This document shows positions 41,779 to 47,872 of a stretch of DNA of 64,000 nt, one piece after another. Positions within the stretch are counted from its first letter, which is position 1. Every line of letters starts with the position of its first letter. This DNA comes from Alteromonadaceae bacterium XY-R5. GTDB lineage: Bacteria > Pseudomonadota > Gammaproteobacteria > Enterobacterales > Alteromonadaceae. A model generated the notes under the pieces. It did no database searches. It had not been told where the DNA came from and was given only the letters and a program-made list of their open reading frames with translations. The position numbers were made by a program, and so were the translations under genes. Location of the stretch: NCBI GenBank assembly GCA_001660395.1, contig LXWE01000001.1, forward strand, positions 186,001 through 250,000. The letters are read 5' to 3'.

Positions 41779-42837
41779 TTAGTTTGCTGCCTTTTTAAAC
41801 GTTTCTTCTGCCATCAAGTTTGCCACAAGGTTTGTTGGCAATGATTCGGCCTCTGAACGAGCATAAATGTCTTTCAATGTTTGTCCGATCTGCTCGATGT
41901 GCAAACGCAGTCTTTCAGCTGTGCTGTCACCCTGCTGATGGTAAATATCGATAATACCGCCTGCATTGATGACGTAATCCGGTGCGTACAACACCCCTTT
42001 CTCGCGCAGCAGTTCCCCTACACTTTCAGTTGCCAACTGATTGTTTGCAGCACCTGCAACCACTTTCGCTTTCATGGAGTTAACAGAATCGATTGTTAGA
42101 ATCGCTCCCATGGCACATGGTGCAACAACATCGACGTCTAACGATAGGATTTCATCCGTAGTTACGACGGTAGCGCCAAATTCTTCTGCTGCTTTCGCTG
42201 GACCTTCAGGAAAGATATCTGCAACAAACAGTTCAGCCCCCTGTTCATGGAGATGGCGCGCCAGTCGGTAACCAACATGTCCCATGCCTTGTATCGCCAC
42301 TTTCACACCTTTCAGGTCACGATTTAGGGCATACTCAACGCTCGCTTTTAATCCAACAAAAACACCGTATGCCGTGCCAGGTGCAGGATTTCCATCATTT
42401 GGACTCCCATCAAAGCAGAATTTACCTGATGTGCCACTGATATAGTCTGAGAATTCAGCCATTTTCTGTAGGTCTGTAACCGAAATACCTGAATCTTCAG
42501 CCGTAATATATTTACCGCCAAGTGTATTAACAAACTTCCCCATGGCTTCCATCAGTTCTGGGGATTTGTCTTTGCGTGGATCACCAATGATCACCGCCTT
42601 GCCGCCTCCCTGGGGCAATCCAGCTAACGCAGCTTTGTAGGTCATCCCTTTAGACAAACGTAACACGTCTGTCAGTGCTTCCTCACCGCTGGCATAGGGC
42701 CACATACGACAGCCGCCTAAAGATGGACCCAGGTTGGTATTATGCACCGCAATAATGGCCTTTAGGCCCGAAGCCTGGTCATGACAAAATGCTACCTGTT
42801 CATGCTGATCAAATTCAGAATGTTCAAAAACGGACAT
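41779..42837 (-). CDS. Leucine (branched-chain amino acid) dehydrogenase
   Basis: 352 residues of the Glu/Leu/Phe/Val dehydrogenase family. N-terminal substrate domain with GPSLGGCRMWPY, catalytic Lys region MTYKAALAGLPQGGGKAVI (near residues 66-84) and TAEDSGI. The NAD domain has IQGMGHVGYRLA (near 182). The length and the GGCR motif fit leucine dehydrogenase, which deaminates Leu, Ile and Val to keto acids. It is divergent from an Lrp-type regulator, a meaningful pairing because Lrp proteins sense leucine. Confidence 0.92.
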   Translation of the reverse strand: MSVFEHSEFDQHEQVAFCHDQASGLKAIIAVHNTNLGPSLGGCRMWPYASGEEALTDVLRLSKGMTYKAALAGLPQGGGKAVIIGDPRKDKSPELMEAMGKFVNTLGGKYITAEDSGISVTDLQKMAEFSDYISGTSGKFCFDGSPNDGNPAPGTAYGVFVGLKASVEYALNRDLKGVKVAIQGMGHVGYRLARHLHEQGAELFVADIFPEGPAKAAEEFGATVVTTDEILSLDVDVVAPCAMGAILTIDSVNSMKAKVVAGAANNQLATESVGELLREKGVLYAPDYVINAGGIIDIYHQQGDSTAERLRLHIEQIGQTLKDIYARSEAESLPTNLVANLMAEETFKKAAN

Positions 42838-43061: not shown

Positions 43062-43529
43062 ATGAAATTAGACAAATTCGATCGCGAAATTCTGCGTGTT
43101 CTGCAAAAAGATGCCACAGTTTCTATGGCTGAACTTAGTCAACAAGTGGGATTATCTCACACTCCTTGCTGGCGCAGGGTAAAGCGCATGGAAGCAGACG
43201 GCATTATAAAACAAAAAGTCACTCTGCTAGATAATAAAAAGCTTAATTTGGGTGTTTCGGTCTTTATTTATGTGACTTTGAAGAACCATGATGGTGAATC
43301 CCTGAACAATTTCGAGAAGGCGGTTCAAAATATCGTTGAAATCGTTGAGTGTCACACCACCAGTGGAGAAAAGGATTATTTATTGAAGGTCATGGTTGAA
43401 AGTATTGAAGAATACGAGCAGCTGTTAAAAACCAAGCTGACTCATCTGCCTCTGGTAGACCATCTAAGTTCTACGTTTGCGCTTAAACAGGTTAAGAACA
43501 CAACTGAATTGCCGATCAAAAATATCTGA
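43062..43529 (+). CDS. Lrp/AsnC-family transcriptional regulator
   Basis: 155 residues: N-terminal helix-turn-helix (MAELSQQVGLSHTPCWRRVK, about 22-41) and a C-terminal RAM effector-binding domain (about 65-145, ending HLPLVDHLSSTFALKQVK). Divergent from leucine dehydrogenase, so it probably responds to branched-chain amino acids and controls that gene. The start at 43062 lacks a strong ribosome site, but the downstream frame is typical. Confidence 0.9.
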   Translation: MKLDKFDREILRVLQKDATVSMAELSQQVGLSHTPCWRRVKRMEADGIIKQKVTLLDNKKLNLGVSVFIYVTLKNHDGESLNNFEKAVQNIVEIVECHTTSGEKDYLLKVMVESIEEYEQLLKTKLTHLPLVDHLSSTFALKQVKNTTELPIKNI

Positions 43530-43553: not shown

Positions 43554-44207
43554 TTACTGGGCATCTACCTGATATTCTGGCGACGCTTTTACAAAGCTGT
43601 CCAATTCCATGCAATTGTTAACAATACGGTTTATCACCGGATAAGGCGTCATATCTAACCCAACACGCTTAGCATTATAAACCTGGGGTACCAGACAAAT
43701 ATCCGCCAGTGTCACGTCGAAACCAAAACAATAATCCGCAGCAGTAGTTTGAAGCCGCTTTTCAATTCCCTTCAAACCTAACCCAATCCAATGACGGATC
43801 CAAACCTGCTTTTGTTCTTCGGTAATATCCCAGCGTTCAGCCATATAATTAACAACACGCAAATTTCCCAACGGCTGAATATCACACGCAATGTCATCCG
43901 CTATCATCCGCACTCTGGCACGATCTAACGCGTGTACGGGCATCAATGAACATTCTCCAGGAAAACGCTCATCCAAATACTCAATGATCGCAAGTGACTG
44001 GTTTAAAATTATGTCCTCGTCATCATCCACCAGCGTAGGAATTAGTTCACTCGGATTCAAATTGATGTAATCAGGCTTATGCTGCTGACCGCCATCTGCG
44101 GTTAAATGCACAGGAATATATTCATATTCCAAACCTTTTAAATTCAGCGCGATTCGCACCCGATAGCTCGCTGACGAACGCCAATAGCCATATAGTTTTA
44201 AACTCAT
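43554..44207 (-). CDS. maiA: Maleylacetoacetate isomerase (zeta-class GST)
   Basis: 217 residues from the ATG at 44207, five bases after TAGGAG; a GTG two codons upstream is in frame. The zeta-class motif SSASYRVRIALNLKGL (residues about 12-27) and LIPTLVDDDE, INQSLAIIEYL-like NQSLAIIEYLDE segments are typical. The enzyme isomerises maleylacetoacetate to fumarylacetoacetate using glutathione, in tyrosine breakdown. Directly upstream lies a broken hpd gene, so its original operon has decayed; the isomerase itself looks intact. Confidence 0.9.
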   Translation of the reverse strand: MSLKLYGYWRSSASYRVRIALNLKGLEYEYIPVHLTADGGQQHKPDYINLNPSELIPTLVDDDEDIILNQSLAIIEYLDERFPGECSLMPVHALDRARVRMIADDIACDIQPLGNLRVVNYMAERWDITEEQKQVWIRHWIGLGLKGIEKRLQTTAADYCFGFDVTLADICLVPQVYNAKRVGLDMTPYPVINRIVNNCMELDSFVKASPEYQVDAQ

Positions 44208-44215
44208 ATCCACTC

Positions 44216-44690
44216 CTAATTTTCATCGGGTGCCTGCAACACCCCAAGGCGAACTTGCTCCAACTCGATAGACTTAATTAAGACTTGAAAGATCTCCTCA
44301 ACTAAGCGCTGATTGCCTTTACGCTGGATCCGTTCGAAGAAGATTGCCCCACCAGATTTCCAGTAAAAATCTGTAAAAGTATCCCGTCTTTTCCGGAGCC
44401 CCATCTATCAGAATACCTAGACTTTGCAGGAGTTCAATATTTTCGCCTTGGCCGTTTATAACTGCATTTGCGCTGCACAGACGCAGGGAGGTAAGTATGC
44501 TTTCTTCACAATTACAACAAAATGAGTCTGATATTATTGAAATAGCCAAACCTGTTTGGATGAATGTTTTGTAACCTCGGTAACGCCCAAATTTGTAAAC
44601 AATACTTCTAATGTGGCGGTCTGTTCCGCTTTTGACGCACAGAATCCAGAGTACCTTCTCCTGTGATAGCATATCACCCAAAAAGTTTAT
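44216..44690 (-). pseudogene. hpd: Remnant of 4-hydroxyphenylpyruvate dioxygenase
   Basis: Three frames on the minus strand together spell pieces of HPPD. Near 44638-44534: LEVLFTNLGVTEVTKH then SKQVWLFQ (N-terminal domain), ending at TAA. Near 44438-44381, in another frame: IELLQSLGILIDGAPE. From 44382 to 44216, in a third frame: GAIFFERIQRKGN then IKSIELEQVRLGVL (C-terminus). HPPD is normally about 350 residues; here the central roughly 200 residues, carrying both iron-binding His, are missing, and only the Glu of FFE remains. The order is collinear, and maiA follows. Confidence 0.85.
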
Positions 44691-44820
44691 CAATGGCAAA
44701 CAAAGCTGCTATTCAATGAGCTAAACAGAAGTGAAATACGCGTAACGAAAGAATGGACACAGAAATTGAGAAAAAAGCAGTGTTACTGACACTGCTGATC
44801 AAAAACGTCATGCCAAGCGA

Positions 44821-45202
44821 TTAATGCCTGGATTGAAGGCCTTTGACATATGTGCCTGCCATTGCAACAGATACCCCTACGACCACGGTCACTGCGAGCA
44901 TACTCCAGCTAATGTGGTCGGCACCTAACTTAAAAACGTTATCATTCCACATTCCCCGGACTGGCACAGTGGGACGCCATAAATGCACCTCAACGAACGA
45001 CGCTGCAATCAGCAAGCCACTTATCGAAGTTACAACCGCTGCCGCTTGACGCTTGACGCTTGGTTAGCGTTAATCCTAAAGCGATTAGGCTAGGAAAAAA
45101 TACACTAATATTCACCAGCCAAAGTTTCAGACTAATAGGATACAGCCAGTTATGGGCTTGTCTTAGATGATCAACATCATGAAAAACAATCATCATTATC
45201 AT
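44821..45202 (-). pseudogene. Small membrane-protein gene split by a 7-bp tandem repeat frameshift
   Basis: Two overlapping minus-strand frames, 45202-44990 (begins MIMMIVFHDVDHLRQAHNW) and the region 45060-44821 (SISGLLIAASFVEVH ... YVKGLQSRH), join exactly if one 7-bp unit is removed from the repeat at 45043-45063. The restored protein, about 124 residues, has four hydrophobic segments. I do not recognise the family. It is either a recent pseudogene or switched by slippage. Confidence 0.7.
45043..45063. repeat. 7-bp tandem repeat (CGCTTGA)2 CGCTTGG
   Basis: Three consecutive 7-mers, the third with one substitution. Because 7 is not a multiple of 3, gain or loss of a unit shifts the frame of the membrane-protein gene that spans it. 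Confidence 0.9.
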
Positions 45203-45314
45203 CAGAATATTTGCCCAAAGTAATACCTAGATCCCTTTTTGCTGTTTAAAACTCTCCATATCGCCACCCATATTCATAACAGATGTCATAATAATTCGAT
45301 ATTTTCTTTAACCA

Positions 45315-45348
45315 ACAAAAAGGCCTGAGCGTTTGCACGTTCAGGCCT
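45315..45348 (-). terminator. Terminator of tyrR
   Basis: AGGCCTGA and TCAGGCCT stem, followed on the minus strand by TTTTTG; it lies 30 bp after the tyrR stop. Confidence 0.88.
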
Positions 45349-45377
45349 GATGACTAACTGCAAGCTAGCGCAGGGGT

Positions 45378-46940
45378 CTATATTTTTACTGTCTTCTTAT
45401 TAATACCATATTCGCGCAGCTTGTTGGCAATAGCGGTATGGCTTAAACCAAGCTTCTTCGCTAACTGGCGAGTACTCGGATAAGCAGGATACAAACGACG
45501 TAACAGATTCTTTTCGAAACGTTTTACTTCGTCGTCTAAGGTGCCTTCAATTTCGTCCGGGCTAAAGGTTTCAACAATCGCATTCGAAGGTAACTGGATG
45601 TGTTCTTTACTTAACTCGTTGCCATCGTTCAAAGACAAGGCTCGGTAAAGGGTATTTTCAAGCTGACGCACATTGCCTGGCCAAGGGTATCCCTGCAGGT
45701 ATTCCACGCAGGATTTACTCAGTTTCACCGGATGACGACCCAGTCTCGCACAATGCTGACGAATAATCGTATCTGCTAGCGGCACAATGTCGGTGCGACG
45801 TTCACGCAGCGGTGGAATAAAGATGTTCAGTACATTCAGACGGTAATACAAATCCTCACGGAACTTTCCATCCATCACTAACTGATTCAAATCTTTCTGG
45901 GTGGCACAGATAAAGCGCACATCGACCTTCATCTCTTTAGCATCACCAATACGGCGATAGGTTCCGTCTTGCAACACCCTAAGTAACTTGGTCTGTAGCT
46001 GGGAAGACATTTCACCAACTTCATCCAAAAATAGCGTACCGCCCTGCGCTAACTCTAAAAGGCCAGCTTTAGGTTCACCATTGGAGAAGATACCTGGCCC
46101 TGCTCCAAATAATTCGGTTTCAGCCACTTCGTCAGGCAATGACGCACAGTTCAATGCCAGAAAATCATTTCCGGCACGACGGCTGGCGTCATGGCAAGCC
46201 TTGGCCAGACGCTCTTTGCCTGTTCCGGTTTCGCCATAAAGCAGAATATGACCATCCAGTGCAGCCATCTTTTTCGCTTCTTTGACCACCTTTTTCATCA
46301 TACTACTGTTAGCCTGAATGGCAGCAAAGCTATCTGGATTACCCTGATTAAAAACAGTTAATTGCTGACCTAGCCGGAATTCAGACTTCAGCATTAACAA
46401 AGCCCCGGCAAGGATATTTTTCCCTTCGCCTTCATGACCAGGCACCACCACAGGTAAAATATCTGCAAGGAAATCCTGCTCGATAAATTTCACTTTATGG
46501 GCCTGAGGCTCAACTTTATTGGCATCAATCCAACGGCCAAAGTTAAAACCTTTTACATACTCATTGATTTCTGTTCCCAGAATGTCATCAACGGGCATTT
46601 CTAAACTCAGTGAAACGGCACCATTCACCAGTAAAATGCGCCCGCGCGGATCCACAGAAAACACTGGATCAGGTAAGGTTTCCAGCAAAGCGCGTAACTG
46701 ATTTTGCTCTCGTTCCATTGGCATAAAAGGCGTCGTTTTAACGTCTTCAATACCCTTAATGCGGCGAATTTCCGGCATTAAATGTTGAAAGCCAGAAAAC
46801 TCGATATTGGGGAAATTTAGGAAGATTTTTCCAACCGGGTCAATTTCTATGCCACGCAGATCAATTTGATGCCTGACTAATATATCCAGAATATCTTGCG
46901 TAATCCCTAAACGATCCTGACAACTTATTTCCAGTCTCAT
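45378..46940 (-). CDS. tyrR: Aromatic amino-acid regulator TyrR
   Basis: 520 residues. ACT domain (1-70, MRLEISCQDRLGITQDIL), PAS domain (about 78-140), AAA+ domain (about 205-430) with Walker A GETGTGKE and Walker B GGTLFLDEV, and a C-terminal helix-turn-helix (STRQLAKKLGLSHTAIANKL, about 490-509). The sigma54-contact GAFTGA loop is replaced by GAGPGIF, as in E. coli TyrR, which regulates sigma70 promoters. It senses Tyr, Phe and Trp. Its neighbours phhA and maiA are aromatic catabolism genes, so it probably controls them. Confidence 0.94.
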   Translation of the reverse strand: MRLEISCQDRLGITQDILDILVRHQIDLRGIEIDPVGKIFLNFPNIEFSGFQHLMPEIRRIKGIEDVKTTPFMPMEREQNQLRALLETLPDPVFSVDPRGRILLVNGAVSLSLEMPVDDILGTEINEYVKGFNFGRWIDANKVEPQAHKVKFIEQDFLADILPVVVPGHEGEGKNILAGALLMLKSEFRLGQQLTVFNQGNPDSFAAIQANSSMMKKVVKEAKKMAALDGHILLYGETGTGKERLAKACHDASRRAGNDFLALNCASLPDEVAETELFGAGPGIFSNGEPKAGLLELAQGGTLFLDEVGEMSSQLQTKLLRVLQDGTYRRIGDAKEMKVDVRFICATQKDLNQLVMDGKFREDLYYRLNVLNIFIPPLRERRTDIVPLADTIIRQHCARLGRHPVKLSKSCVEYLQGYPWPGNVRQLENTLYRALSLNDGNELSKEHIQLPSNAIVETFSPDEIEGTLDDEVKRFEKNLLRRLYPAYPSTRQLAKKLGLSHTAIANKLREYGINKKTVKI

Positions 46941-47098: not shown

Positions 47099-47872
47099 TT
47101 AATTTTGTAAGGGAATTTGTTTTAACCCAATTGCTTGATTAACTGCCGCCAGCAAATCCTGTTTTGTTAACTGATACAACTCTTTGAGGTCATGGATCAC
47201 ATAATAAATTGGTTGTAGATGGTCAATACGGTAAGGCGTCGTAAGCACCGTCATCAGCTCAAAGGGTGCACGCCGACAGTCCTGCGAATCCAGCGCATGT
47301 AAAGTCTCTCTGGGCGAAGATAAAATCCCGCCACCATAAATGCGTAATCCCACAGGTGTCTGCAGCAATCCAAATTCCACCGTAAACCAGTACAACCTGG
47401 CAAGGTAAACCCTCTGTTGATGATTAGCGTGTAAACCTAGTTGTCCGTACGTGTGGGTAAACGCGGCAAAGTCAGGGTCGGTAAGCATGGGACAATGGCC
47501 AAATATTTCATGAAAAATATCCGGTTCCTGCAGATATTCCATGTCCTCCAGGCGGCGAATAAAGGTTGCCACTGGAAATTGACGATTCGCAAGTAAAGCA
47601 AAAAAGCGATCAAAGTTAATTAACGCAGGTACGGTGGCAATTTGCCAACCAGAACATTGCTGAAGCTTTTGATTCAACGTCGCAAGCGAAGGAATTTGCT
47701 CACGACTTAATCCTAGTGTTTCAATTCCGCTTAAGTAGGCATCACATGCCCTTTGCGGCAATAGCGCGTTTTGGCTATCAATTAACTGTCGCCAAGTATC
47801 ATGTTCTGTTGCGGTCCAGGCGATTGAACCGTCTGCTTCTACCTGACGAGATTGATATTCATATGCACGCAT
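47099..47872 (-). CDS. phhA: Phenylalanine-4-hydroxylase
   Basis: 257 residues, the usual size of bacterial enzymes. The iron site is intact: HEIFGHCP (two His, near residue 120) and the Glu in WFTVEFGL (near 165). It converts Phe to Tyr using a pterin cofactor and oxygen in the cytosol. No pterin-carbinolamine dehydratase (phhB) is adjacent. With hpd broken in this window, the Tyr formed may not be degraded by the homogentisate route unless a second hpd exists. Confidence 0.94.
   Translation of the reverse strand: MRAYEYQSRQVEADGSIAWTATEHDTWRQLIDSQNALLPQRACDAYLSGIETLGLSREQIPSLATLNQKLQQCSGWQIATVPALINFDRFFALLANRQFPVATFIRRLEDMEYLQEPDIFHEIFGHCPMLTDPDFAAFTHTYGQLGLHANHQQRVYLARLYWFTVEFGLLQTPVGLRIYGGGILSSPRETLHALDSQDCRRAPFELMTVLTTPYRIDHLQPIYYVIHDLKELYQLTKQDLLAAVNQAIGLKQIPLQN

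Follow-up and report, generated by a model that had tools for sequence, protein, structure and literature searches.

A decayed hpd beside intact maiA in Alteromonadaceae bacterium XY-R5, and a VOC-fold protein as candidate stand-in for the homogentisate dioxygenase HmgA

Among the described systems closest to the locus considered here are the homogentisate genes of Alteromonadales and of Acinetobacter baumannii. According to an excerpt of PMC5343134, hmgAB of several Alteromonadales and Pseudoalteromonadales are predicted targets of a MarR-family regulator, HmgS. For A. baumannii AB4353, the accessible part of PMC7646211 reports that a homologue of hmgA is absent and that a gene lying between hmgC and hmgR encodes a "type I ring-cleaving dioxygenase" domain. 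The authors considered dioxygenase activity of the encoded protein to be probably absent. Judging from its place, we infer that this gene is the VOC gene discussed below. According to sections of PMC9431530, a transposon lay in a gene labeled "hmgA" in a pigmented A. baumannii, and plasmid-borne "hmgA" abolished the pigment. The "hmgA" reference in an extract of PMC11945678 is 633 bp long and overlaps hmgB by 14 bp. In an A. baumannii record, maiA (L113:6339-6971) has this layout and the VOC gene does not, and the label in that extract may be wrong.

The window, a stretch of 64,000 nucleotides from Alteromonadaceae bacterium XY-R5 (contig LXWE01000001.1, positions 186,001 to 250,000), contains a deleted, frameshifted hpd pseudogene. 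A sequence-only reading had described fragments of 4-hydroxyphenylpyruvate dioxygenase (HPPD), in the correct order and in three reading frames, within about 475 bp, and tblastn with HPPD proteins reproduced these pieces and their positions. The queries were 40 distinct HPPD proteins, comprising those from the hpd loci of relatives and the intact copy of the host genome. Four pieces follow one another on the minus strand from 44644 to 44219, in three frames. The N-terminal piece (44513..44644, minus strand; HPPD residues ~20-65) holds an in-frame stop and scored 41.6 bits (E 5e-10), the best among the matches listed. Next comes the site of an internal deletion (44469..44512, minus strand), defined as the gap between the flanking matches, at which 44 bp replace ~215 codons; some HPPD queries extend a few residues inward here. 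A piece in a second frame (44382..44468, minus strand; residues ~280-312) reached 35.0 bits, again the best among the matches listed, and one in a third frame (KDGILLQIFTGNLVG; 44347..44391, minus strand; residues ~306-325) matched with at most 73% identity over 15 residues. The C-terminal piece (44216..44350, minus strand; residues ~320-365) is in the frame of the N-terminal piece. At 46.6 bits it was the top single piece, far above the maximum of 25.4 bits and the median best score of 19.6 bits obtained from 200 dinucleotide shuffles of 44200-44800 with the same 40 queries; the similarity to HPPD that had been claimed is accordingly real. Among the matches listed, the highest-scoring single query gave 40.4 + 33.5 + 26.9 + 46.2 = 147.0 bits over the four pieces, and the lowest E values were 2e-16 for the three C-terminal pieces jointly and 5e-10 for the N-terminal piece.

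The lesions are the ~215-codon deletion, two frame changes and the stop in the N-terminal piece, and a search for a start codon of the remnant found none. Because HPPD residues ~65-280 are absent, both His-ligand segments have been lost, in agreement with the earlier claim that the middle of the enzyme is gone. The Glu-ligand segment FFERIQRKG is still present in the C-terminal piece. The iron of HPPD is bound by two His and one Glu. The profile TIGR01263 matched the C-terminal piece alone (21 bits in the genome search and 24.3 bits with the 62-residue piece), whereas its full-length cut-off is 277. The old hpd stop, TAG at 44218-44216, overlaps an AGGAG that is the likely ribosome-binding sequence of maiA.

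Directly downstream, maiA (43554..44207, minus strand) is intact, as the sequence-only reading had stated; its product scored 281.3 bits against TIGR01262 (cut-off 171.05), and the other 10 of the 11 matches in the genome stayed below that cut-off. The start is ATG at 44207, with GTG at 44213 also possible. Upstream of the remnant, tyrR (45378..46940, minus strand; NF008085, 654.7 bits, cut-off 576) and phhA, encoding phenylalanine 4-monooxygenase (47099..47872, minus strand; TIGR01267, 320.6 bits, cut-off 264.75), are both intact. An Lrp-family regulator gene (43062..43529, plus strand; NF008370, 129.3 bits, under the cut-off of 233) faces maiA, and a gene of the Glu/Leu dehydrogenase family (41779..42837, minus strand; family matches under cut-off) adjoins it; synteny in several relatives accompanies both assignments. 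Between tyrR and the remnant lies a second broken reading frame, hydrophobic in character (44821..45202, minus strand), recognized from its open reading frames, its frames and a repeat. A 7-bp tandem repeat near 45045-45066 marks its frameshift, and it had no Pfam match at E 0.01; by tblastx, the tyrR-to-remnant stretch had no relative among selected loci of related genomes (best E 0.86). No traces of hmgA or fah were found in 44000-45400 at E 0.05.

The sequence-only reading held that tyrosine degradation is broken at hpd and homogentisate left unformed, unless another copy of hpd exists. The proviso proved decisive. A full-length hpd lies on a 1.44-Mb contig of the same genome (G000:C112:463091-464116) and scored 392.6 bits against TIGR01263 (cut-off 277), covering positions 2-352 of 353 without a stop. 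Homogentisate can therefore still be formed, and a break of the pathway at hpd is ruled out. The C112 HPPD shares 73-85% identity with those of eight further genomes in the family. The assembly comprises 5.12 Mb in 415 contigs and is rated 100% complete and 3.21% contaminated, which leaves little room for a foreign origin of a contig of this size. In tetranucleotide composition, 30 kb of C112 correlated with the window at 0.93, parts of the window of 16 kb, a control included in its own reference, at 0.91-0.96, and seven stretches of relatives at 0.71-0.84. The same contig encodes a 628-residue protein (L053:173-2059) with an HPPD-like C-terminal half, which is presumably a dehydroshikimate dehydratase fusion. 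The second HPPD-like match on C112 falls within this protein, at 162.2 bits, below the cut-off, and we did not count it toward tyrosine catabolism.

That reading had also named hmgA and fahA, with hpd, as genes to be sought elsewhere in the genome. A fahA of the long type is present on another contig (C223:347813-349078; 502.3 bits, cut-off 375.3), so that two of the three genes were located. The third was not: neither TIGR01015, Pfam HgmA_C nor the HmgA protein of a related operon retrieved a cupin hmgA from the genome. Positive controls came from the other genomes compared, in which TIGR01015 and the related HmgA protein did recover hmgA.

The hpd stretches of 23 of 30 other genomes with hpd above the cut-off were compared. 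Complete hpd-hmgA-fah-maiA genes, in the same order and on the same strand, occurred in 8 of the 23; tyrR lies immediately upstream in 7 of these 8, and phhA is upstream in 5. The order phhA-tyrR-remnant-maiA in the window is that of the relatives' operons, and Lrp-type and dehydrogenase neighbors are common to several of them. Because relatives carry tyrR-hpd-hmgA-fah-maiA at this locus, the remnant corresponds to the dead operon copy of hpd. A comparison with relatives, which the sequence-only reading had proposed, also revealed what that reading left unremarked, namely, that hmgA and fah have gone from the window as well. Sequence identity agrees with this assignment. The remnant is 46-52% identical to 14 operon-type HPPDs, which fill ranks 1-14 of 40, and at most 44% identical to the other 26; identity to the intact C112 HPPD of the host is 40%. 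Judged by sequence, the C112 hpd is of a different lineage from the operon copy. A tree on the remnant's own columns placed it within the operon-type set (support of ~0.2), whereas a tree on the full alignment placed it next to a divergent HPPD that is not part of the set (support of 0.70), which may be a long-branch effect. We took synteny as stronger evidence of operon origin than the weak tree placement. The remnant, then, is a tyrR-linked hpd pseudogene in that it lies between tyrR and maiA and is closest to operon-type HPPDs, with weak tree support.

The loss of hpd at this locus does not look recent, contrary to the earlier view that it was fairly recent. Over the same columns, the remnant has a mean identity of 48% to 14 live orthologues, which are on average 81% identical among themselves (range, 75-97%), and its reading frame is disrupted by a stop, a large deletion and two frame changes, all of which speak against a young age. 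Similar losses have occurred elsewhere. Used as a query, the window MaiA retrieved loci from named genomes, eleven in all, of which one has no tyrR within reach; hpd is kept in 7 of 10 other tyrR-maiA loci and lost in 3. In Alteromonas ponticola (L085) and A. aquimaris (L087), the tyrR locus is without hpd and hmgA and only fah-maiA is left. TIGR01015 detected no hmgA in these two genomes, for which we predict a second hpd and a VOC protein elsewhere. In an uncultured Alteromonadaceae, maiA directly follows tyrR; this genome appears to be the one labeled G009 in our set, as the place and score of its hmgA are identical.

A gene for a 181-residue VOC-fold protein starts 2 bp after fahA on C223 (L095:7100-7645). 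Its possible relation to the missing hmgA was examined in 25 genomes: the host, 23 others of the family and one of the order. VOC proteins were counted at E ≤2e-76 and at least 66% identity, and the matches excluded had E 9e-29 or worse and at most 36% identity; hmgA was searched with TIGR01015. The VOC protein was found in 14 of the 25 genomes and hmgA in 11. Among the 24 genomes with hpd, 13 had the VOC protein alone, 10 had hmgA alone, one had both (G009) and none had neither; the 25th (G006) is without hpd, VOC protein and hmgA. This distribution gave a value of 5.6e-6 in Fisher's exact test, in which kinship is ignored. Each of the 13 hpd genomes in which TIGR01015 found no hmgA thus has the VOC protein, and several have its gene next to hpd or fah. 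A VOC protein of ~180 residues follows the second-type hpd in 7 of 8 genomes, and the eighth (G023) has the cupin hmgA there; another copy of the VOC gene lies at L043:5637-6185. In six VOC genomes whose hpd is of a third type (G001, G007, G008, G012, G013 and G020), the VOC gene is away from hpd and fah in the stretches compared, so the link to the pathway is weaker there.

The C223 protein belongs to the VOC superfamily (PF00903, 52.9 bits, cut-off 20.6). For the orthologue in G014, the best PDB match was 9u42, "Glyoxalase" (248.5 bits), an entry for which we found no literature, and the best NCBIfam match was catechol 2,3-dioxygenase (48.4 bits versus a cut-off of 320.2). Three elements are invariant in 20 of 20 aligned VOC sequences, namely, a His pair around residue 7, a QH around residue 84 and, within a GHRxE motif, the Glu; these His, His and Glu could be metal ligands. 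In type I extradiol-like dioxygenases, the metal is bound by two His and one Glu, and PcpA and LinE are VOC enzymes that cleave para-diols. In the literature, judged by titles and the openings of abstracts, we found no description of a VOC-type homogentisate dioxygenase.

Related genes also occur on plasmids. At E 1e-5, a tblastn search of 72,556 plasmid records with the G014 VOC protein gave matches in 113, and identity was under 60% in 98 of these. Nine of the fourteen best-matching records were inspected, including two from A. baumannii that are much alike. A fumarylacetoacetate hydrolase gene was nearby in 8 of the 9 loci, maiA in 5 and hpd in 4, and hmgA of either type accompanied the VOC gene in none of the nine within the stretch inspected. 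The ninth locus, from Acidovorax, has none of fah, maiA, hpd and hmgA. On one Acinetobacter plasmid, fahA-maiA-VOC is followed by CoA transferase and thiolase genes, which would match the needs of acetoacetate use. The idea that the VOC protein replaces maiA and not hmgA was ruled out, as the two occur together in 5 of the 9 plasmid loci (L113, L114, L117, L120 and L121); the host genome, which has both, is further evidence against it.

Taken together, we consider it very probable that the window holds a dead hpd orthologue in a partly dismantled phhA-tyrR-hpd-hmgA-fah-maiA operon and that the hpd on C112 and the fahA-VOC pair on C223 now carry the pathway. The second hpd and the fahA-VOC pair would have taken over tyrosine degradation, and with the pathway so carried, the hpd, hmgA and fah of the old operon would have become dispensable and then decayed or been deleted. 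Retention of maiA, with no second copy detected, would fit this course, and phhA and tyrR would likewise have stayed intact. The VOC protein would cleave homogentisate and so keep the pathway running; we propose that it replaces HmgA in the host genome. We infer the order of the gene losses, this cleavage and a running pathway, and the VOC protein is a candidate homogentisate dioxygenase on the evidence of profiles and gene neighborhoods. With moderate confidence, we extend the proposal beyond the host: this ~180-residue protein may be another homogentisate dioxygenase, not homologous to cupin HmgA, that substitutes for it in many Proteobacteria and whose presence enabled the dismantling of operons such as that of the window around maiA.

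The principal alternative is that homogentisate is formed by the second hpd and, after the loss of hmgA, remains uncleaved and gives rise to pyomelanin, the VOC protein having another role. Three different queries failed to find hmgA, HmgA loss leads to pyomelanin in other bacteria according to the excerpt of PMC7646211, whose authors doubted the activity of the presumed A. baumannii VOC protein, and the VOC gene stands away from hpd and fah in six VOC genomes, at least in the stretches compared. Set against this, maiA and fahA, which act past the proposed block, remain intact, only 2 bp separate fahA from the VOC gene, and none of the 24 hpd genomes is without both the VOC protein and hmgA. 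A block at the same step in 13 genera seems unlikely as well, and on balance we regard a blocked pathway as improbable, albeit the most serious competitor of VOC-dependent cleavage.

Other readings concern the remnant itself. That its frameshifts and deletion are errors of sequencing or assembly might be suspected in a draft of 415 contigs, and yet the 48% mean identity of the pieces to live orthologues means that changes are spread over the whole remnant. Error would also have to coincide with the absence of hmgA and fah from the same locus and with three other relatives that are without hpd at the same place; moreover, the remnant resembles another HPPD type more closely than it does the intact copy and hence is not a chimera of that copy. 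We give artifact almost no credence. It is also very doubtful that the 62-codon C-terminal frame encodes a new small protein or that the old 3' end was kept for translation of maiA. The C-terminal piece is the highest-scoring one and the old stop does overlap the AGGAG before maiA, but that overlap accounts for the last few bases at most, and the frame comprises only 62 residues, has no Pfam match at E 0.01 and is ~50-58% identical to live HPPDs among the matches listed. Decay of a redundant operon gene remains our preferred reading of the remnant.

As a pseudogene, the hpd remnant reflects ordinary gene loss with a replacement elsewhere in the genome. Its value lies in pointing to an unrecognized enzyme for the step after hpd, where substitution of HmgA by the VOC protein is the main lead. 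Cleavage of homogentisate by this protein, if real, would fill a gap in tyrosine catabolism, and genomes without hmgA, such as the A. baumannii strain described in the available portion of PMC7646211, would need a different reading.

Compared with known systems, the window shares gene order and neighbors with the tyrR-linked hpd-hmgA-fah-maiA operon of Alteromonadaceae and relatives, part of the TyrR/PhhR regulon as outlined in the excerpt of PMC5343134, and differs from it in that hpd is dead and hmgA and fah are missing. The replacement genes resemble the hpd-VOC-fah clusters found in six further members of the family, in which hpd is 83-85% identical to the intact hpd of the host; the VOC protein of G014 is 68% identical to that of the host, and in G018, one of the six, the neighboring regulator is of the Lrp type and shares 67% identity with its counterpart beside the host hpd. 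The other five have a MarR-type neighbor, which may be the HmgS of PMC5343134, as far as the excerpt describes it. In contrast to these clusters, the host hpd lies apart from fah and the VOC gene, and the latter pairs with a long-type fahA on another contig. In the Acinetobacter homogentisate cluster (fahA-maiA-VOC, with iclR and hppD in A. baumannii), the VOC gene occupies the place expected of hmgA, as it does in the host; there, however, all the genes, maiA included, form one cluster, whereas those of the host are scattered.
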